A stretch of 64,000 nt of DNA, taken from Rhizobiaceae bacterium. GTDB lineage: Bacteria > Pseudomonadota > Alphaproteobacteria > Rhizobiales > Rhizobiaceae. This document shows, piece after piece, positions 47,581 to 60,246 of this stretch. Location of the stretch: contig JAEPNK010000001.1 of the NCBI GenBank assembly GCA_017643495.1, forward strand, positions 477,623 to 541,622. The letters are read 5' to 3'. The position numbers and the translations under genes were made by a program. The notes beneath the pieces are model-generated. The model worked only from the letters and a program-made list of their open reading frames with translations. It made no database searches and was not told the DNA's origin. Numbering within the stretch: position 1 is the first letter of the stretch; each line of letters starts with the position of its first letter.

Positions 47581-48528
47581 TTATAAAGACTTACCAAGTC
47601 TTCGTTCCAGTTCGTCCAGCTGCTCGAGAGACTTGTATTGAATGCGCAATTCGCCCTTTCCGCTATCCTTGTGGCGAAGGTCTATTTTCAGGCCAAGCGC
47701 TTCTTCTATTCGCTGTTCGAAAGAGCGAATGTCGGCAGATTTTTCAGTTTTGCGCGAGCCTGCTACAGGTTTTCCGGCCTGTTCGGATGGGTTTTGGGCA
47801 AGCGCTTCTGCCTGACGTACTGACAACCCTTCGGCAAGGATTCGCCTTGCAAGACCTTCCGGATCGTCAGCTGTTACCAGCGTTCGCGCATGACCGGCTG
47901 AAAGCTCTCCATTGCTGACAAGTTTCTGCACGGAAGGAGGCAATTTCAATAGGCGCAACGTATTTGCAACATGGGACCGGCTCTTGCCGATAACCTGGGC
48001 CAGGTCATTTTGGCTGTAATCGTATTCATCAATCAGTTGCTGATAGCCCTGGGCCTCTTCAAGTGAATTGAGGTCAGCCCGCTGGACATTCTCGATGATC
48101 GCAAGTTCCAGCGCCTGCTTGTCCCCGACTTCGCGAATGACAATCGGCACGGAATGAAGAGCAGCCCGTTGTGCAGAACGCCAACGGCGCTCACCTGCAA
48201 TGATCTCATATTCAGCACCGCCCAGATCTTCTCCCCTGACAGGACGCACCAGAATCGGCTGGACGATACCATGCTCGCGAATCGAGTCGGTCAGTTCCTG
48301 CAAGTCACTGTCAGAAAAATGCCTGCGCGGATTGTTGGGGTTCGCCCTGATTTTCTCAATCGGTACGATGCGTTCACCCCGGACAATTTCCGCAGGTTCA
48401 TCCTTTCCGGAAGGGGAGCTGCCAGCGTTGTCAGAAGTACCTCCGCCGGAAGGGAGGGGTTTGTCGAGATCCCCCATGAGTGCAGCAAGTCCGCGACCAA
48501 GGCGTTTTTTGGAATTTTCATCCGACAT
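47581..48528 (-). CDS. parB: Chromosome-partitioning protein ParB
   Basis: This CTP-dependent clamp loads at parS and spreads to guide origin segregation. The 315-residue protein has an N-terminal LGRGLAALMGD box, the CTP/arginine-rich GERRWRSAQRA, ENVQRADLNSLEEAQGY, and the helix-turn-helix YSQNDLAQVIGKSRSHVANTLRLLKLP that reads parS. A C-terminal dimer domain follows (KGELRIQYKSLEQLDELERRL). Four candidate parS sites lie within 5 kb upstream on the chromosome. It follows parA by 67 bases. Confidence 0.97.
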   Translation of the reverse strand: MSDENSKKRLGRGLAALMGDLDKPLPSGGGTSDNAGSSPSGKDEPAEIVRGERIVPIEKIRANPNNPRRHFSDSDLQELTDSIREHGIVQPILVRPVRGEDLGGAEYEIIAGERRWRSAQRAALHSVPIVIREVGDKQALELAIIENVQRADLNSLEEAQGYQQLIDEYDYSQNDLAQVIGKSRSHVANTLRLLKLPPSVQKLVSNGELSAGHARTLVTADDPEGLARRILAEGLSVRQAEALAQNPSEQAGKPVAGSRKTEKSADIRSFEQRIEEALGLKIDLRHKDSGKGELRIQYKSLEQLDELERRLGKSL

Positions 48529-48595: not shown

Positions 48596-49384
48596 TCAGG
48601 CTGCCATCAGCTTCTTTTCCCGCTTGATTACTTCTGCAGCCAGTTCAAGATAGGCTTGGCTTCCCGGACATTGCAGATCATAGAGCAATACCGGTTTTCC
48701 GTAGGAGGGCGCTTCCGATATCCGGACATTTCTGGGAATAACCGTATCATAGACCTTCTCGCCCAGAAATTCACGAACATCCTCGACTACCTGGCTTGCC
48801 AGATTATTGCGCTTGTCAAACATGGTCATGACCACGCCATGAATGTGCAAATCCGGATTGAGGTTCTCCCTGACCTGGTCAACGGTCTGCAATAGTTGGC
48901 TAAGACCTTCCAGGGCAAAAAACTCACATTGAAGAGGCACAAGAATGGAATCGGCTGCTGCAAGGGAATTCAGGGTCAACAGATTCAGGGATGGTGGGCA
49001 ATCGATAAGAATATAGTCGAGCTCCAGTTCCGGGTTCCTGTAATCCGCAATTGCTTTCTTCAACTTGTATGCCCGGTCAGGCTGGCCGGAGATTTCCATC
49101 TCAACCCCCAACAAATCCAGTGTGGATGGAGCCAGATAAAGCCTCGGGACCGCAGTCGGCATGATCGCTTCAGCCAGCCTCGCTTCACCGGTCAGCAGAT
49201 CATAGGTAGAAACATTGCGGTCGTCCCGATCAATACCAAGACCGGTACTCGCATTGCCTTGCGGGTCAAGGTCAACAACCAGGGCATTCTTGCCAATGGC
49301 AGCCAGCGCTGTAGCGAGATTGATCGCTGTCGTCGTCTTGCCGACGCCGCCTTTCTGGTTTGCAATGGTAATGACGCGAGGCAT
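48596..49384 (-). CDS. parA: Chromosome-partitioning ATPase ParA
   Basis: This deviant Walker ATPase binds DNA and pulls ParB-parS complexes. The 262-residue protein starts ITIANQKGGVGKTTTAINLATALAA with the signature lysine, has VVDLDPQGNASTGLG, IDCPPSLNLLTLNSL and the Walker B. It has no N-terminal HTH, as in chromosomal ParA (Soj) rather than plasmid type Ia. It lies five bases after rsmG and precedes parB, the usual chromosomal order. Confidence 0.97.
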   Translation of the reverse strand: MPRVITIANQKGGVGKTTTAINLATALAAIGKNALVVDLDPQGNASTGLGIDRDDRNVSTYDLLTGEARLAEAIMPTAVPRLYLAPSTLDLLGVEMEISGQPDRAYKLKKAIADYRNPELELDYILIDCPPSLNLLTLNSLAAADSILVPLQCEFFALEGLSQLLQTVDQVRENLNPDLHIHGVVMTMFDKRNNLASQVVEDVREFLGEKVYDTVIPRNVRISEAPSYGKPVLLYDLQCPGSQAYLELAAEVIKREKKLMAA

Positions 49385-49389
49385 GGGTT

Positions 49390-50040
49390 TCAGCGCTGCT
49401 TTGTTTCGGGTTTCAGGTTTCGCACTTCCAGCAGAACGGAGTCAGGCGAAACCCTGCTCTCATGCTCTACCAGATCGAAAGACCACGTTCCATTGCATTT
49501 TGCCACTTCCTGACGATATTCACGACCTTTGTGGAAGAGCCCGACAGCCCCATCGCTCAGCCACGGCGCCGACAGTTCCAGAAGCAGTGGAAGTTCGGCG
49601 AGTGCCCGGGCTGTGACAACCTGCGGGGTTTCAATATCCCACGCTGCTACTTCAATTCGTGATGATACAACGCGGGCCTCACTGCCCATCTGGCGGATTA
49701 CCTGCCGAAGAAAAGCGCATTTTTTCTGATTGCTTTCCACCAAAGTGATTGACGCATCTTCCTGCCCAACCAGAACTGCTGCAATTACAAGGCCGGGAAA
49801 ACCACCACCACTACCGATATCCACCCATCGGGAAGCATCGGGCTTGATTGCCAGACACTGTATGCTGTCAGAGACATGTCTGGTCCAGATTTCATCCAGA
49901 GTGGATGGTGCAATCAGATTTGTTTTTTTCTGCCATGTTTGAAGACGGTCGACAAAAAGCTCTAAACGCTCAAATGTTTCACGTGAAACAGGGTATATCC
50001 GCCGGACAAATTCAAAAGCGGAATGCTTATTGCCATGCAT
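49390..50040 (-). CDS. rsmG: 16S rRNA (guanine-527-N7) methyltransferase
   Basis: This enzyme methylates G527 of 16S rRNA using SAM. The 216-residue protein has a WQKKTNLIAPST start of the core, IGSGGGFPGLVIA (SAM loop), VESNQKKCAFLRQV and VTARALAELPLLLEL. Its start overlaps the mnmG stop by one base. Codons for the VSRETF stretch near residue 18 contain a perfect parS (49975-49990), so coding and partition signals share the same bases. Confidence 0.95.
   Translation of the reverse strand: MHGNKHSAFEFVRRIYPVSRETFERLELFVDRLQTWQKKTNLIAPSTLDEIWTRHVSDSIQCLAIKPDASRWVDIGSGGGFPGLVIAAVLVGQEDASITLVESNQKKCAFLRQVIRQMGSEARVVSSRIEVAAWDIETPQVVTARALAELPLLLELSAPWLSDGAVGLFHKGREYRQEVAKCNGTWSFDLVEHESRVSPDSVLLEVRNLKPETKQR
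49975..49990. other. parS: parS site 1 (perfect, inside rsmG)
   Basis: TGTTTCACGTGAAACA is an exact 16-bp palindromic parS. It lies in codons of the N-terminal part of rsmG, encoding VSRETF, about 8.5 kb from the putative origin. Confidence 0.9.
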
Positions 50041-51947
50041 CAGATGACCCTGCTTTGTGAATCCGGTCCTGACGGAGTTTCTTTTTGCCTGTGAGTATAT
50101 TTTGCAATTCTTGTCAGCAACAAGGTAAGGGCAGCAGGCGTCATTCCGTCAATGCGCGCAGCCTGGCCAATACTCACAGGACGCACTTCCATCAACTTGT
50201 GCTTCAGCTCATTCGAAAGGCCGGGCAACTCATCAAACGGAAAGCCTTCCGGAATACGCTTTTCTTCATCCTTGCGAACCAGCATTGCATCAGCTTCCTG
50301 CCGTTTCAAATAGACGGCATAAGTTGCCTCAATCTCCAAAGGCTCGATAACTTCATCAGGAAATTGTGAAAGCTCGGGCCAGATGACACAAAGCGTTTTG
50401 ATATTGACGTCATTGTAGGAAAGCAGATCATATGCCGAGCGGCGAACACCGTCCTCATTCACCTTAAGGCCGGCTTTCCCGGCCTCATTCGGCGTAATCG
50501 TCAAGCTTTGCAGTTTTTGCCGTGCCAGCGCTTTCTCTGTTTGTCGCTTGTTGAAAAATGTCGCGCGCGCGCTACCCACAATACCTGCTTCAATACCCAG
50601 CGGTGTAAGCCGGTCATCGGCATTGTCCGCCCTTAACGACAAACGATATTCTGCTCTCGATGTGAACATGCGGTAAGGTTCGCTTACCCCTCGTGTGACC
50701 AGATCATCAATCATCACACCCAGATAGCTTTCAGTCCGACTGAAAACGGTCTCATCCATACCGGCAACAAGCCTGGCCGCATTAAGACCGGCAACAAGCC
50801 CTTGGCCGGCAGCTTCTTCGTAACCGGTGGTGCCATTGATCTGACCGGCAAGGAAAAACCCGGCGATCCTGCGACTTTCAAGGCTTGGTTTCAATTCGCG
50901 GGGATCGACATGATCATATTCGATTGCATAACCGGGCTGCAGAATCACGGCTCGTTCGAGCCCTGGTATTGTTTTCAAAAAAGCCTTCTGCACATCTTCC
51001 GGCATGGAAGTTGAAATGCCGTTTGGATAGACAGTCCGGTCTTCCAGCCCTTCCGGCTCTATGAAAATCTGATGCCCGTCCCGCTCGCCAAACTTTACGA
51101 TCTTGTCCTCAATGGAAGGACAATAGCGCGGGCCTATTCCGTCAATCTGGCCGGAATACATGGCTGACCGCTTGACATTGTCCTGAATGATCTTGTGCCC
51201 CTCAGGCGTTGTCCGGGTAATCCCGCACGATATTTGCGGATTTGTTATTGCGGCAGTCATGCTCGAAAAAGGAACTGGGATATCATCCCCCGGCTGCATT
51301 TGCAGGCTCGCCCAGTCAATCGTCGCGGTATCAAGTCGCGGTGGCGTTCCGGTTTTCAGTCGTGCCAGTCTGAATTTTGCCCTTTCCAGTGTAACGGAAA
51401 GTCCATTGCTGGGATCCTCGCCCATCCGGCCGGCCGGTATCATCCGGTCCCCGATATGAATAAGCCCCCTGAGGAAAGTACCCGTTGTCAACACAACAGC
51501 GCCGCAAGACAAAACCGTACCATCGGCAAGCACAACGCCCGTCACCCGGTCGTTATTAACCTCGAGGTCCTCTACGGCCGCTTCAACAACTTCTAACCCC
51601 TGAACACTTGCAATCTCCTCCTGCATCGCTTCGCGATAGAGTTTGCGATCGGCCTGGGCGCGGGGCCCGCGTACAGCAGGTCCCTTGCGCCTGTTCAAAA
51701 GCCTGAACTGGATTCCACCCCTGTCAGCCACCCTGCCCATCAATCCGTCAAGTGCATCAACTTCCCGAACCAGATGACCTTTTCCCAGACCGCCAATCGC
51801 CGGATTGCACGACATCACACCAATCGTGTCCCGCTTGTGTGTCACCAAGGCAGTACGCGCACCAAACCGTGCTGCAGCCGCGGCAGCTTCGCATCCGGCA
51901 TGGCCTCCACCGACAACTATGACATCATAAGTTCGAGAATCAGGCAT
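50040..51947 (-). CDS. mnmG: tRNA uridine-5-carboxymethylaminomethyl modification enzyme MnmG (GidA)
   Basis: This FAD enzyme works with MnmE to install cmnm5 or nm5 at U34 of certain tRNAs. The 635-residue protein has the FAD loop [87 protein letters not shown] and the C-terminal MnmE-binding helices. I chose ATG 51947 by homology; a GTG at 51959 is possible. It lies between mnmE and rsmG, overlapping the latter. Confidence 0.96.
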
Positions 51948-51988
51948 ATTCTTATCCACTCAGCCCTGCAGGAGTTGAAGTTACGCTT

Positions 51989-52004
51989 TGTTTCACGTGA
52001 AACG
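51989..52004. other. parS: parS site 2 (15/16, mnmE-mnmG gap)
   Basis: TGTTTCACGTGAAACG differs from the 16-bp consensus only at the last base. It lies in the 80-base intergenic gap before mnmG, 26 bases centre to centre from site 3. Confidence 0.85.
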
Positions 52005-52014
52005 GGGTCATTTC

Positions 52015-52030
52015 TGTTTCACGTGAATCA
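52015..52030. other. parS: parS site 3 (15/16, overlaps the mnmE stop)
   Basis: TGTTTCACGTGAATCA has one mismatch to the consensus. Its last three bases are the complement of the mnmE stop codon. Confidence 0.8.
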
Positions 52031-53335
52031 TTTACCCACGCAAAACTCCGAGAATATTACATCAAGCAGATCTTCCACATCGATCCGGCCTGTAATTCTG
52101 CCAATTTCATCACTGGCAAGCCGCAGATTTTCCGCGCGCAATTCAATATCCATATTCTCACGCATTGCAAGGATCAAGTGTTCGTAACACGATTCAAGCA
52201 ATGCCCTGTGCCTAGCGCGGGTGATCAATCCGGATTCGATATTTCCAATACTGGATTGGACCCTTCCGGATATCATTTCCAGCAGGCTGTCCATCCCGTA
52301 TCCTGTTCGACTTGAAAATGATGTGCCTTCAGTGCGAAGACCATCATCATCTTTGGAAATCATGTGAACTAGATTTTCCAGATTGACGATATCGGACGGC
52401 AAAACTTCGTCAGGATGGCCAAGCCAGATAACAAGATCGGCGCTCTCTCCGCGCTGTCTTGCCCTGCGTATTCCCTCTTGTTCAATGCGATTGCCTGATT
52501 CGCGGATTCCTGCAGTATCGGAAACAATTACCGCATGACCATCAATATCCAGATGCACATCAATTACATCACGGGTCGTACCTTCCTCCTCCGTTACAAT
52601 AGCCACGTCACGACGCGCCAATGCATTCAGCAGACTGGACTTGCCCGCATTCGGTTTCCCCATCAGGGCTACTTTAAATCCTTCCCGAACAATCTCCCCT
52701 GCGCGATTGTCTGAAAGATGTTGGTGTATTTCACGTGAAACACCCCCAATCTGCGAAAAGCCGGCAGCGGATATATCCTTCGGCACGTCCTCTTCTTCGG
52801 AAAAATCCAGTTCCGCTTCGATCATGGCCCGCAAGTGTATCAGGCGTTTTCGCCAGTCATCGTATAACTTCCTCAGCTCACCCATGCTTTGAGACAATGC
52901 AAGCCGTCTTTGCGACTCGGTCTCGGAAACGATGAGGTCAGCTATTCCTTCAGCTTCAGTCAGATCCATACGACCATTTTCAAAGGCCCGCCGGGAAAAT
53001 TCACCGGCTTCGGCAATACGCACCCCCTTATGCACCAGCAAGGCATCGAGAATGGCAGATACAACAGCTTTCCCGCCATGAACCTGATATTCCAGACAGT
53101 CTTCGCCGGTGAAACTACGGGGGCCGTCAAAATGCAATACAATGCCGTTATCCAGCACTTCCCCTGTTTCCGGATGGCAGATTTGTTTGAGAACAGCCTC
53201 TCGCGATCCGGGAAGATCGCCCAGCATCGAGTTTGCAATCGAGGCAACCTCCGGACCTGATATCCTTATGACAGCTACACCGCTGGGAAGCATCCCGCTG
53301 GACAGGGCAACAATAGTCTTTCTTTCTGCTTCCAT
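52028..53335 (-). CDS. mnmE: tRNA uridine-5-carboxymethylaminomethyl modification GTPase MnmE (TrmE)
   Basis: This GTPase partners MnmG in modifying U34 of tRNA. The 435-residue protein has an N-terminal tetrahydrofolate-binding domain (TIVALSSGMLPSGVAVIRISG, SFTGEDCLEYQVHGG), a helical domain, and an inserted GTPase with GKPNAGKSSLLNAL (about residue 225), EGTTRDV and DTAGIRE. The essential C-terminal FCVGK carries the catalytic Cys. ATG 53335 begins the family N-terminus; the longer frame to 53419 overlaps the divergent yyaL. It contains parS site 4. Confidence 0.95.
   Translation of the reverse strand: MEAERKTIVALSSGMLPSGVAVIRISGPEVASIANSMLGDLPGSREAVLKQICHPETGEVLDNGIVLHFDGPRSFTGEDCLEYQVHGGKAVVSAILDALLVHKGVRIAEAGEFSRRAFENGRMDLTEAEGIADLIVSETESQRRLALSQSMGELRKLYDDWRKRLIHLRAMIEAELDFSEEEDVPKDISAAGFSQIGGVSREIHQHLSDNRAGEIVREGFKVALMGKPNAGKSSLLNALARRDVAIVTEEEGTTRDVIDVHLDIDGHAVIVSDTAGIRESGNRIEQEGIRRARQRGESADLVIWLGHPDEVLPSDIVNLENLVHMISKDDDGLRTEGTSFSSRTGYGMDSLLEMISGRVQSSIGNIESGLITRARHRALLESCYEHLILAMRENMDIELRAENLRLASDEIGRITGRIDVEDLLDVIFSEFCVGK
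52727..52742. other. parS: parS site 4 (15/16, inside mnmE)
   Basis: TATTTCACGTGAAACA matches the consensus apart from the second base. It lies in the mnmE coding region, about 700 bases from sites 2 and 3. Confidence 0.75.
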
Positions 53336-56853: not shown

Positions 56854-57276
56854 TCAAAAAGGTTTCACAACAACCAGAATTACGATCGCAATCATCAACA
56901 GGGTCGGTCCTTCATTGGCGATTCGGTAAAACCTTGCAGAACGCAAACGTTTGTCCTCACGGAACTCGCGAACCCATCTTGCCTGAAAACCGTGAAATGC
57001 TGACATCAGGATGACAAGAAAGAATTTCGCAGCAAACCAGCCTTCCTGGTGTGCATCGATCAATACAACCAGCCACAAACCGAATATCCACGTCGCCAGC
57101 ATGGCCGGCGTCATGATAATCCTGAGAAGCCGCCGCTCCATAAGCTTGAATGTTTCTGACTGAACCGATCCAGTCTCTGCATCGAAATGATAAATGAGCA
57201 GGCGCGGCAAATACAATTGACCGGCCATCCAGCTGATAACCGAGATTATGTGAAGCGCTTTGACCCATTCATACAT
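56854..57276 (-). CDS. hemJ: Protoporphyrinogen IX oxidase HemJ
   Basis: This membrane enzyme oxidises protoporphyrinogen IX to protoporphyrin IX in haem synthesis. The 140-residue protein has four membrane helices and starts YEWVKALHIISVISWMAGQLYLPRLLIYH, with the conserved haem-ligand His (about residue 10) and Trp. W-F-G-L-W-L-V-V and a C-terminal RFYRIANEGPTLLMIAIVILVVVKPF follow, all typical of HemJ. It overlaps the hemE stop by one base, so hemE-hemJ are cotranscribed. Confidence 0.93.
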   Translation of the reverse strand: MYEWVKALHIISVISWMAGQLYLPRLLIYHFDAETGSVQSETFKLMERRLLRIIMTPAMLATWIFGLWLVVLIDAHQEGWFAAKFFLVILMSAFHGFQARWVREFREDKRLRSARFYRIANEGPTLLMIAIVILVVVKPF

Positions 57277-58295
57277 CAGCGTCCCTTCCTGACCCTTTCA
57301 ACAAGCTGTTCCACATGAGCGATCGGTGTTTGCGGTGTAATGCCATGACCAAGATTGAAAATTAGTGGCCCCGAACCGAGATTGTCGAGTATCGCGTCGA
57401 CCCCATCATTAAGGGCATCTCCACCAGCAATCAGCCTCAGCGGATCAAGCATGCCCTGAACCGGCCCTCCCTGTTGCAGCATTCTCGCCTGTTCTTCCGG
57501 CACACTCCAGTCAAGCCCGATACAGTCAACGCCGGTCCGTTCCCGGTATGTATTGTATTGCGTTCCACATCCTTTCGGGAAACCGATAATCCTTGCTCCA
57601 GGCACTTCCGACTGTACATTGGCAACAATTCTTGAAACCGGGCCAAGGCACCATTTCTCAAACTGGTCACCGCCAAGAATGCCTGCCCAAGAATCAAAGA
57701 TCTGAACCGCATCAGCACCCGCCTTCAGTTGCGCAACCAGATATTCCGAAGATGCCTCGACAAGGATATCAATCAGCTTCTCGAAAACAGCAGGCTGGCT
57801 CAAGGCAAAAAGCCTGGCAGGTGCCTGGTCAGGTGTACCCCTTCCGGCAATCATGTAAGTTGCCACAGTCCATGGAGCTCCGCAAAAACCAATCAGCGTG
57901 GTTTCATCCGGCAATTCGTTTCGCAGGCCTGAAACCGTTTCAAGTACTGGTGCAAGATGATCCAGCACATTGTCACTTTGCAGGTTTGAAATTCCGTTTG
58001 CATCAATCGGATCAAGAACCGGTCCTTCCCCTTCCCTGAATGCAACCTGTCTTCCCAGGGCATCAGGAATGACAAGGATGTCCGAAAACAGGATTGCTGC
58101 ATCAAAGCCAAACCGCCTGATCGGCTGCAATGTCACTTCAATTGCAAGTTCCGGGTTGTAACAAAGATCAAGAAACCCACCTGCCTGTTTTCTGGTTTCC
58201 TTGTACTCAGGCAGATATCGTCCGGCCTGTCTCATCAGCCAGATTGGTGGTACGGCAAGTTTTTCTCCTGCCAGAACCTTCATCACTTTTCTCAA
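57276..58295 (-). CDS. hemE: Uroporphyrinogen decarboxylase
   Basis: This enzyme decarboxylates uroporphyrinogen III to coproporphyrinogen III. The 339-residue protein has [19 protein letters not shown] with the substrate arginines, [40 protein letters not shown], and [12 protein letters not shown]. The start is ambiguous: TTG 58295 has GGAG seven bases upstream and gives the [10 protein letters not shown] seen in homologues, while ATG 58283 is four codons in. It borders the putative origin, the usual alphaproteobacterial arrangement, and is transcribed away from it. Confidence 0.95.
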
Positions 58296-58534
58296 ACCAG
58301 TTTCTCCACAACACGGGTAAAAAAGGAACTTCTATGGAAGTTTTTGATTCTTATTAGACTCTGTGAACTACGGGGATTAACGTTCTTTCACAAGTCATTC
58401 ACATTTGGCTCACTTATCCATGAATCCAACCGGTAAAAAATCCTGATTGAAGAATCTGCTAAACAACATTTTAAAGAGCCAATATTTTCAATGACTAAGA
58501 GAAGTTATAATTCTTGGATGTGCTGTGAACAGAT

Positions 58535-58543
58535 TGTGCATAA
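58535..58543 (-). promoter_or_regulatory. DnaA box, perfect (minus strand)
   Basis: TGTGCATAA is the reverse complement of TTATGCACA, a full TTATNCACA consensus. Confidence 0.7.
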
Positions 58544-58568
58544 TTTTTGAAAACTGTATTACTCCCCG

Positions 58569-58577
58569 TTATTCACA
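58569..58577 (+). promoter_or_regulatory. DnaA box, perfect
   Basis: TTATTCACA matches TTATNCACA. It lies exactly 100 bases from the next perfect box. Confidence 0.7.
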
Positions 58578-58668
58578 GCCTCGATGAAACTTCGTATACA
58601 GGTTTGTACTTGTGCGTAAGTTTCGGGAGAGCGGGCATAGTTTCAGGTTAGGCGCGTCGATGCGGATT

Positions 58669-58677
58669 TTATCCACA
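58669..58677 (+). promoter_or_regulatory. DnaA box, perfect high-affinity type
   Basis: TTATCCACA is the classic strong DnaA box. A near match TCATGCACA follows one base later. Confidence 0.75.
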
Positions 58678-58739
58678 CTCATGCACAATATGCTGCAACC
58701 AGTAATCCTCCGTTTTCGCCATGGAAAGGTGCGCCGGTC

Positions 58740-59612
58740 TTGAACAAAAGAGCCAATTTCCACCTGCACCTGATTTCCGACTCAACAGGCGAAACACTGA
58801 TCGCTGCCGCCCGTGCAGTATCTTCCCAGTACAATTCAACCCAGGCTATCGAACATATTCACCCGATGGTGAGAAACCAGCGTCATCTTGAAACGGTTAT
58901 TCGCGAAATTGAAAACCATCCGGGCATTGTGCTTTACACGATTGCAAATCAGGAAATTTCCGAAATCCTTGAAACCAGTTGCAAGGAGCTCGGCGTACCC
59001 GTGGTTTCTGTGCTTGAGCCGATTTTCCAGACTTTCCAATCCTATCTCGGTAAACCAACCAAGCGGGTCGTGGGTGCACAACATGCGCTAGACAGCGAGT
59101 ACTTCCAGCGAATTGACGCCCTGAACTTCACCATGTTGCATGATGACGGCGTAATCCCCGAAGATATCGAAGAAGCCGATATTGTACTGATAGGCATAAG
59201 CAGGACTTCGAAAACACCGACCAGCATTTACCTAGCCAATCGTGGAGTGAAAACCGCGAATATCCCCCTCGTCCCGGGTGTTGATCTTCCTTCACAGGTT
59301 TTCAGTGCCAAAAAGCCCCTGATTGTGACCTTGATAGCGTCAACAGACCGTATCCAGCAGGTTCGACAGAACCGTCTTCTTGAACTCAATGCCGGCAATT
59401 ATTCATCAGGTTATGCGGACCGTGCTTCAATTGCCGAGGAACTTGCAGCTGCAAGAAGACTTTGCAACAAACATGGCTGGCCATCAATTGACGTGTCCCG
59501 AAAGTCAATCGAGGAAACAGCTGCTGCTGTCCTTGCCTTGCGGGCAAAACATCTTGCAGCCAGAAACGAAGCTATTGATGGAACGGCTGCACAGGAAATG
59601 CCAGATAACTGA
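58740..59612 (+). CDS. Pyruvate, phosphate dikinase regulatory protein (DUF299 kinase/phosphorylase)
   Basis: This bifunctional enzyme switches PPDK on and off by ADP-dependent phosphorylation and Pi-dependent dephosphorylation. The 290-residue protein has [13 protein letters not shown] at the start, [26 protein letters not shown], the P-loop [19 protein letters not shown], and the C-terminal [27 protein letters not shown]. The start is a TTG at 58740 with GGAAAGG about ten bases upstream; no ATG is in frame nearby. It borders the origin region and begins a rightward run with maf, aroE, coaE and dnaQ. Confidence 0.93.
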
Positions 59613-59652
59613 ACAAAGGCACAACTGAAATACAAATTCTACGGGTGATCGA

Positions 59653-60246
59653 ATGAGTGAAGTAATCCTGGCCTCGGGAAGCGCGATCCGTGCGCAAATA
59701 CTGGAAAACGCGGGAATCGCTTTCAGGCAGGTTCCGGCGGAAATCGATGAACGGGCAGTGGAAGAACCCCTGACGGAATCCGGTATGGACGGGGGTGATA
59801 TCGCGATGGTGCTTGCCATTGCCAAGGCAACGGAAGTTTCTAAGCGTCATCCCGGCAGTCATGTAATTGGCAGTGACCAGACGCTATCGCTCAATGGCGA
59901 ACTTCTTCACAAGCCGGAGGACATGGAAGCGGCCCGCCGCCGGTTGCTCGCCCTTTCCGGCAAGAGCCACGAACTGAGTTGTGCCGTTGTGATCGTTTGT
60001 GATGGCGAGGTGATCTGGCAACATACGGCAGTCAGTACCATAACCTTCCGCGATCTTGATCCCGGTTTTGTGGGTAGACACCTGGCCGCTGCCGGTGATG
60101 TTGTACTATCGAGCGTCGGCGCATACCAGATTGAAGGGTTGGGCGTTCAATTGTTTGACAAGATAGAGGGAGATTTCTTTTCCATCATGGGGCTTCCGCT
60201 GCTCCCGCTCCTTGCACAAATGCGCAAACTGGAAATCATGGAATGA
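59653..60246 (+). CDS. Maf family nucleoside-triphosphate pyrophosphatase
   Basis: Members hydrolyse non-canonical or modified nucleotides. The 197-residue protein has the N-terminal ILASGSAIRAQILENAGIAF (a variant of the LASxSPRR motif, with Ala-Ile in place of Pro-Arg), GSDQTLSLNGELLHKP, SGKSHELSCAVVI, and SVGAYQIEGLGVQLFDKIEGDFFSIMGLPL. It belongs to the Maf group found between the PPDK regulator and aroE in Hyphomicrobiales. Nucleotide choice is not known. It overlaps aroE by four bases. Confidence 0.92.
   Translation: MSEVILASGSAIRAQILENAGIAFRQVPAEIDERAVEEPLTESGMDGGDIAMVLAIAKATEVSKRHPGSHVIGSDQTLSLNGELLHKPEDMEAARRRLLALSGKSHELSCAVVIVCDGEVIWQHTAVSTITFRDLDPGFVGRHLAAAGDVVLSSVGAYQIEGLGVQLFDKIEGDFFSIMGLPLLPLLAQMRKLEIME

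Follow-up and report, generated by a model that had tools for sequence, protein, structure and literature searches.

Based on the gene borders, DnaA-box content and GC skew of an intergenic region of a Rhizobiaceae bacterium, combined with comparisons to relatives and to known origins, we conclude that positions 58296-58739 of the window, i.e. the whole 64,000-nucleotide stretch analysed, very probably represent the chromosomal replication origin, of the hemE/COG1806 type known across Alphaproteobacteria. The preliminary description, which had proposed a probable oriC beside hemE, is thereby supported by a box cluster that is unique in the genome, nearby parS sites and parAB, a change in GC skew and conserved borders. 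As an origin, the region is ordinary and what its class leads one to expect. Its presumed unwinding module appears to be a variant of the DnaA-trio kind, and is worth testing.

The hemE/COG1806 intergenic region

The putative origin region (oriC, without strand) occupies the 444 bp between hemE and a COG1806 gene if the TTG start of hemE is used, and 456 bp (58284-58739) if hemE starts at the inner ATG. Its left border is hemE, encoding uroporphyrinogen decarboxylase (57276-58295, minus strand; TIGR01464 above cut-off), and its right border a COG1806/DUF299 gene with a TTG start for a PpsR-like regulator (58740-59612, plus strand; NF003742 above cut-off). Transcription diverges from the gap, leftwards through hemE and rightwards through the COG1806 gene, in agreement with the preliminary description, which had both flanking genes pointing away and had also called the gap AT-rich. 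The latter is borne out by a G+C content of 40.6% (59.4% A+T) for 58284-58739 against 52.6% (47.4% A+T) for the window, and the window's lowest-G+C 456-bp stretches, scanned in 50-bp steps, overlap the gap. The COG1806 gene is followed rightward by maf, aroE, coaE, dnaQ and secB, while the genes left of hemE are taken to be rho, mnmE and mnmG, with rsmG further left beyond them. parA (48596-49384, minus strand; ParA-family matches all below their cut-offs) and parB (47581-48528, minus strand; TIGR00180 above cut-off) are located within the window, and dnaA is 218 kb distant from the gap.

GC skew was sampled on a single contig (C10, 2,050,937 bp, of a 3.74-Mb genome in 18 contigs), covering 800 kb in stretches plus the window. 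It is negative in all ten sampled 20-kb stretches left of the gap and positive in 28 of the 30 to its right. Cumulative skew over 44-64 kb of the window has its minimum at 58.5-59.5 kb; because the five 10-kb blocks covering 1-50000 hardly deviate from zero (-0.014 to +0.005), the local change stands out most from about 47 kb onward. On this one sampled contig, a sign change and a local skew minimum are hence found at the gap, as expected from the preliminary description. Four parS sites, a perfect one (TGTTTCACGTGAAACA, 49975-49990) and three with a single mismatch each (starting at 51989, 52015 and 52727), span 49975-52742, at 5.6-8.3 kb from the gap; the sites are thus nearby as previously described, with the distance given then, 6-9 kb, corrected. 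Genome-wide, five parS matches exist at up to two mismatches, the fifth (two mismatches) being about 245 kb further left. Regarding tests for this type of origin, the hemE/COG1806 borders, an unmatched box cluster, higher A+T and the (sampled) skew change are all present.

DnaA boxes and other sites in the gap

Three perfect DnaA boxes are found in the gap, TTATGCACA at 58535-58543 (minus strand), TTATTCACA at 58569-58577 (plus strand, within element B) and TTATCCACA at 58669-58677 (plus strand, within element C), along with four one-mismatch boxes, TTCTCCACA at 58302-58310 (plus strand), TCATTCACA at 58395-58403 (plus strand), TTACGCACA at 58611-58619 (minus strand) and TCATGCACA starting at 58679 (plus strand, in element C). 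Both numbers, and the exact positions of the perfect boxes, are as in the preliminary description, and so is the separation of two perfect boxes by 100 bases, since those at 58569 and 58669 start exactly that far apart. This spacing is common to relatives, being 100 in L007 and 99 in L011, L012 and L013 (measured by hand), the four same-genus relatives having the perfect right-hand box.

In the 3.74-Mb genome, 38 perfect TTATNCACA boxes occur, three of them inside 143 bp of the gap, which constitutes the sole perfect-box cluster genome-wide; the closest pair elsewhere is about 7 kb apart, and the 64-kb window contains no perfect box outside the gap. The reversed control pattern has 44 genomic occurrences, hence the box itself is not enriched genome-wide and the clustering alone is remarkable. 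First-order Markov simulations of the gap reached three perfect boxes in 0 of 3000 cases and produced a mean of 0.54 one-mismatch boxes per simulated gap.

Two of the perfect boxes belong to larger elements on the plus strand: element B (58559-58577), consisting of TTACTCCCCG and the perfect box TTATTCACA, is an inverted near-copy of element A (see below), and element C (58669-58687) is formed by the tandem boxes TTATCCACA c TCATGCACA. Of the three non-overlapping 40-bp segments with the lowest stability in the window, two (58318-58358 and 58481-58521) are located in the gap, the latter being its second AT-rich low-stability segment. GANTC sites are present at 58346, 58357, 58422 and 58452, i.e. 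four rather than the three counted previously, compared to about 0.9 expected for the gap from 129 in the window. The first two are associated with the array described below, GATTC (58346-58350) inside it and GACTC (58357-58361) at its edge. This pair (58346-58361), with a spacing of 11 bp, straddles TTATTA, and such a pair is observed in seven of the ten gaps L006-L015; in nine of these ten, TCCACA occurs within the first 30 bp from hemE, and in the window the one-mismatch box at 58302-58310 is close to the hemE start. With a consensus for IHF, two one-mismatch matches and no perfect one were detected in the gap.

Relatives and conserved blocks

For comparison, 90 loci were reduced to 70 distinct gaps, the window's own included, by leaving out 12 without hemE and 8 duplicates; from a further set of 120 loci, 105 were used, with 7 lacking hemE and 8 excluded because of their length or incomplete ends. 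Some loci are counted as other Hyphomicrobiales without a family check and a few are titled just Proteobacteria or Alphaproteobacteria. COG1806 was not matched in 36 of 114 class and 14 of 101 order genomes, and matching genomes were fetched in part. The arrangement is conserved: in 113 of the 120 further loci, hemE lies upstream of the COG1806 gene at no more than 1.5 kb, and 63 of the 70 gaps have a length of 375-463 bp. The COG1806 protein is unmatched in the same-family genomes G013, G016, G017, G022, G024, G030, G032 and G033, listed as 98-100% complete, where the origin-adjacent gene may be lost or diverged. Separately, L094, L095, L101, L110, L115 (titled Methylocapsa) and L133 possess a COG1806 gene and no hemE in about 8 kb upstream, so that these loci may have a changed origin border.

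Conservation does not extend to the perfect boxes, as 12 of the 70 gaps (own included) hold any; perfect-box conservation was consequently rejected as a key signal, and the weight that the preliminary description gave to these boxes is less well founded. When 60 relatives were searched at the DNA level, only a 25-52-bp core was recovered, within 58340-58393 of the window, and five of the 11 further same-genus genomes match it. Outside the genus, a single match, 26 bp long and corresponding to 58536-58561, is situated in G036 (C1:209023-209048), about 2.9 Mb from the COG1806 gene of that genome, and could be chance or a moved origin piece.

Alignment of ten gaps revealed three conserved blocks, A, B and C, and a block motif built from the sites in those ten gaps alone was then scored on 53 out-of-genus gaps. 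The top-scoring minus-orientation match of the element A motif falls 60-90 bp from hemE, a range chosen after inspecting the data, in 24 of the 53 (shuffle mean 4.05, maximum 9, in 100 shuffles). Element B is weak outside the genus, with 11 of 53 gaps vs a shuffle mean of 4.8 and a maximum of 12.

A three-base-periodic array beside element A

The conserved element at 58340-58379 combines a three-base-periodic array, lying on the hemE side, with a weak tandem DnaA site that follows it. The site itself, element A (58362-58379, minus strand), consists of the tandem weak DnaA-like sites TGTGAACTA and CGGGGATTA, which read TAATCCCCG TAGTTCACA on the minus strand. It is separated by the four-base spacer ACTC (58358-58361, plus strand) from the array GTT TTT GAT TCT TAT TAG (58340-58357, plus strand), which is DnaA-trio-like, is read towards the DnaA site and overlaps the low-stability segment 58318-58358. 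In the E. coli layout and the B. subtilis order, the unwinding side lies 3' of TTATCCACA, which is towards hemE here, and an opening from element A towards the gap centre was for this reason dropped.

Anchored on block A (45 of 69 gaps), T has a frequency of 0.93-0.96 at -6, -9, -12 and -15 on the hemE side and 0.31-0.82 at the positions between. In the further order set, with 27 of 56 gaps anchored, T reaches 0.81-0.93 at the same every-third places, and also 0.70 at -7 and 0.78 at -10. For the host family (26 of 28 gaps anchored, 14 after dereplication), the three triplet places have A+C frequencies of 0.11, 0.69 and 0.06 and T frequencies of 0.70, 0.30 and 0.77, i.e. a middle base that is mostly A or C (0.69; G 0.01), and T as the third base; for other Hyphomicrobiales (45 of 98 anchored, 30 dereplicated), T is at 0.37, 0.63 and 0.83. 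The T and A+C spreads are reached by 0 of 2000 shuffles for both the 14 host-family and the 30 other Hyphomicrobiales sequences, the relatedness of which makes shuffles overstate independence. The other orders (22 of 49 gaps anchored) display no fixed register (T spread reached by 203 and A+C by 631 of 2000 shuffles). Homology between the arrays of the host family and of other families may be in either of two registers.

Sister orders hold TAG and other TNG runs in the corresponding hemE-side region, as detected by anchor-free counting within 10-140 bp of hemE. For runs of at least four triplets, other orders have 9 of 47 gaps vs 0.38 by shuffle, and other Hyphomicrobiales 4 of 102 gaps vs 0.12. 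At a length of at least three, runs in other orders (19 of 47 gaps) have a middle base of A 0.32, T 0.36 and G 0.32, and those in the Hyphomicrobiales order set (10 of 102 gaps) have T at 0.70. In the genus, TNG runs occur in 0 of 10 gaps.

Comparison with known origins

The Caulobacter and Rickettsia origins are likewise flanked by hemE and COG1806 according to the available text of PMC1914354, in accordance with the earlier claim that hemE-adjacent origins are known. In Hyphomonas neptunium, marker frequency peaks near hemE and parAB is about 7 kb away (passages of PMC6650430), and parAB is likewise near the origin here. The Caulobacter crescentus origin, Cori, shares with the present region its borders, a similar length (404 bp, as given in PMC1914354), an A+T content above that of the genome and several DnaA sites, and the two oppositely directed G-boxes described for Cori (available text of PMC10797057) may be compared with the inverted elements A and B. 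In contrast to the five CtrA sites of Cori (PMC1914354), no perfect TTAA-N7-TTAA is present in the gap, which has one such site with one mismatch at 58460. A CcnA-like RNA, as reported for Cori in passages of PMC8959179, was also considered and not retained, as no Rfam family is matched at threshold across 57000-60000, a result limited to the RNAs that Rfam contains. The oriC of S. meliloti showed no transcription in the part of PMC2245857 available.

The presumed unwinding module can further be related to the BUS (DnaA boxes, short spacer, DnaA-trios). The published rule, in the available text of PMC8287927, allows at most two box mismatches and asks for three or more NAN triplets in succession within 16 bp; counted by hand, TAGTTCACA has three mismatches to TTATCCACA, and TAG and TAT are followed by TCT and GAT, giving two consecutive NAN triplets, so the module falls outside this rule. 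Nevertheless, the BUS is resembled in the succession of a DnaA site, a four-base spacer and a three-base-periodic array with an AT-rich segment adjoining, and in TAG as the array triplet nearest the DnaA site. Unlike in the BUS, T mostly replaces G at the third place in the host family, the DnaA of which carries Trp at the presumed N187 and Ala at the presumed I190 position.

A short likeness is also seen to the E. coli oriC segment that we take to be the right 13-mer and R1, where CTTATTAG likewise lies beside the nearest DnaA site and methylation sites are flanking, GATC there, with two straddling TTATTAG, and GANTC here. The spacer, the methylation system and the remainder are different. 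The E. coli segment used for this comparison is matched in 4796 of 5426 genomes, and the likeness may be convergent or due to chance.

DnaA residues and possible re-coding of the array

DnaA was collected from the loci with the best profile scores rather than as a random draw; 83 of 89 loci gave a protein, and the remaining six (L310, L329, L339, L346, L347 and L349) were read directly. The equivalents of B. subtilis N187, I190, R202 and E228 are presumed placements in our alignment. At the positions so taken for N187 and I190, host-family DnaA has Trp and Ala in 33 of 33 cases (28 of 28 and five read directly). Other Hyphomicrobiales have Tyr (20), Ser (3) or Phe (3) at the former and Val (21), Ala (3) or Ile (2) at the latter (26 proteins), and other orders Tyr (26), Phe (2) or His (1) and Ile (25) or Val (4), respectively (29 proteins). 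A one-residue loss just after G-K/Q of the QFxxG(K) segment is present in 54 of 54 Hyphomicrobiales proteins and in 0 of 29 from other orders, totals that the directly read proteins bring to 59 of 59 and 0 of 30, and the sixth directly read DnaA, from another order, has Tyr and Val and no one-residue gap. At the presumed R202 and E228 positions, all 83 proteins have Lys and Glu, respectively, so that within the class the trio contacts have not all changed. Hyphomicrobiales DnaA scores lower on Pfam PF00308 than most other alphaproteobacterial orders listed.

B. subtilis DnaA contacts the middle base of the trio through Asn187 and the trio G through Arg202 and Glu228, with Ile190 and Ile193 flanking the third base; at the middle place A or C works in vitro and in vivo and G or T less well, and the I190A variant is defective in single-strand binding (available text of PMC10721633). 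Against this background, it is conceivable that in Hyphomicrobiales, most strongly in the host family, the single-strand code of the origin and the reading site of DnaA changed together, i.e. a natural re-coding. On the code side, 5'-TAG would have been replaced by a T-periodic array, with TTG runs in some families and [T/G]-[A/C]-T in the host family; on the DnaA side, the change would be the residue loss together with the host-family Trp and Ala in place of Asn187 and Ile190 of trio binding. As the DnaA differences are at clade level, with very few independent events, this co-adaptation of array and DnaA is put forward as a hypothesis.

Alternatively, the array may be an ordinary DnaA-trio array under neutral drift, read by a DnaA that tolerates A or C at the middle place, which would make co-adaptation unnecessary; this reading, too, we hold only tentatively. 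It is compatible with the host-family middle base, which is A or C at a frequency of 0.69 and G at 0.01, and with the acceptance of C for A by B. subtilis both in vitro and in vivo (PMC10721633). However, the middle base in other Hyphomicrobiales is mostly T in either register, which B. subtilis tolerates poorly, and the host family has T at the third place, where B. subtilis captures G. The replacements at the presumed N187 and I190 equivalents likewise speak against drift.

Specificity of the three-base period

The period beside element A could also belong to a hemE promoter, a leader peptide or base composition, which we consider less likely than not. The array is indeed T-rich and within 65 bp of hemE, and the genus alone lacks the period unless anchored, with an absent anchor-free lag-3 autocorrelation of T (-0.01). 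Such autocorrelation amounts to a modest 0.06 in other Hyphomicrobiales (shuffle maximum 0.015), where lag 1 is equally 0.06, and to 0.04 in other orders (shuffle maximum 0.021). Stricter dereplication, leaving six host-family sequences, weakens the T signal (reached by 19 of 1000 shuffles; A+C by 0 of 1000), and weaker signals are detected on the other side of site A, for A (8 of 1000 in the host family, 2 of 1000 in other Hyphomicrobiales) and T (92 and 24 of 1000, respectively), as well as for A beside element B in the host family (13 of 1000). Yet the period stays in register with site A while the distance from A to hemE varies between 59 and 113 bp through all three phases, and it is therefore not in one hemE reading frame. 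Moreover, a control region 60 bp away gives no signal, and the TAG and other TNG runs of sister orders are found in the same region.

Discussion

That the gap is merely a divergent promoter for hemE and the COG1806 gene, with DnaA as transcription factor and the origin elsewhere, is highly improbable, as the skew change, the parS cluster and the sole perfect-box cluster coincide at the gap, even though the gap does separate two divergent genes and DnaA has a further role as transcriptional regulator in Caulobacter (abstract of PMC3193534).

For the region as an origin, we propose the following working model. DnaA-ATP would fill the boxes in elements B and C and the individual ones lying between them. 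Element A, with its weak tandem site, would serve to load DnaA onto the hemE-side periodic array (58340-58357). Stretching of the array strand by DnaA would then open the AT-rich DNA beside hemE and permit helicase entry, after which ParAB, through the parS sites 6-8 kb away, would move the sister origins. DnaA binding, the site and direction of unwinding and any control through GANTC methylation are here what we infer from the arrangement of the sites.

In open-licence PMC, no report of a DnaA-trio in Rhizobiales was found, an earlier report elsewhere being possible, and among the matches listed there for the DnaA-trio with Caulobacter or Alphaproteobacteria, PMC5043019 alone names all of these, its trio passages concerning Epsilonproteobacteria. 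According to the available text of PMC8287927, 15% of searched origins are without a DnaA-trio, and deviant trios are suspected. If the array reading proposed here is true, it would offer a natural series, from TAG over TTG to T-periodic arrays, with accompanying changes in DnaA. Recognition of single-stranded origin DNA by the initiator would thereby become testable, and the series would help to explain origins without a detectable DnaA-trio.
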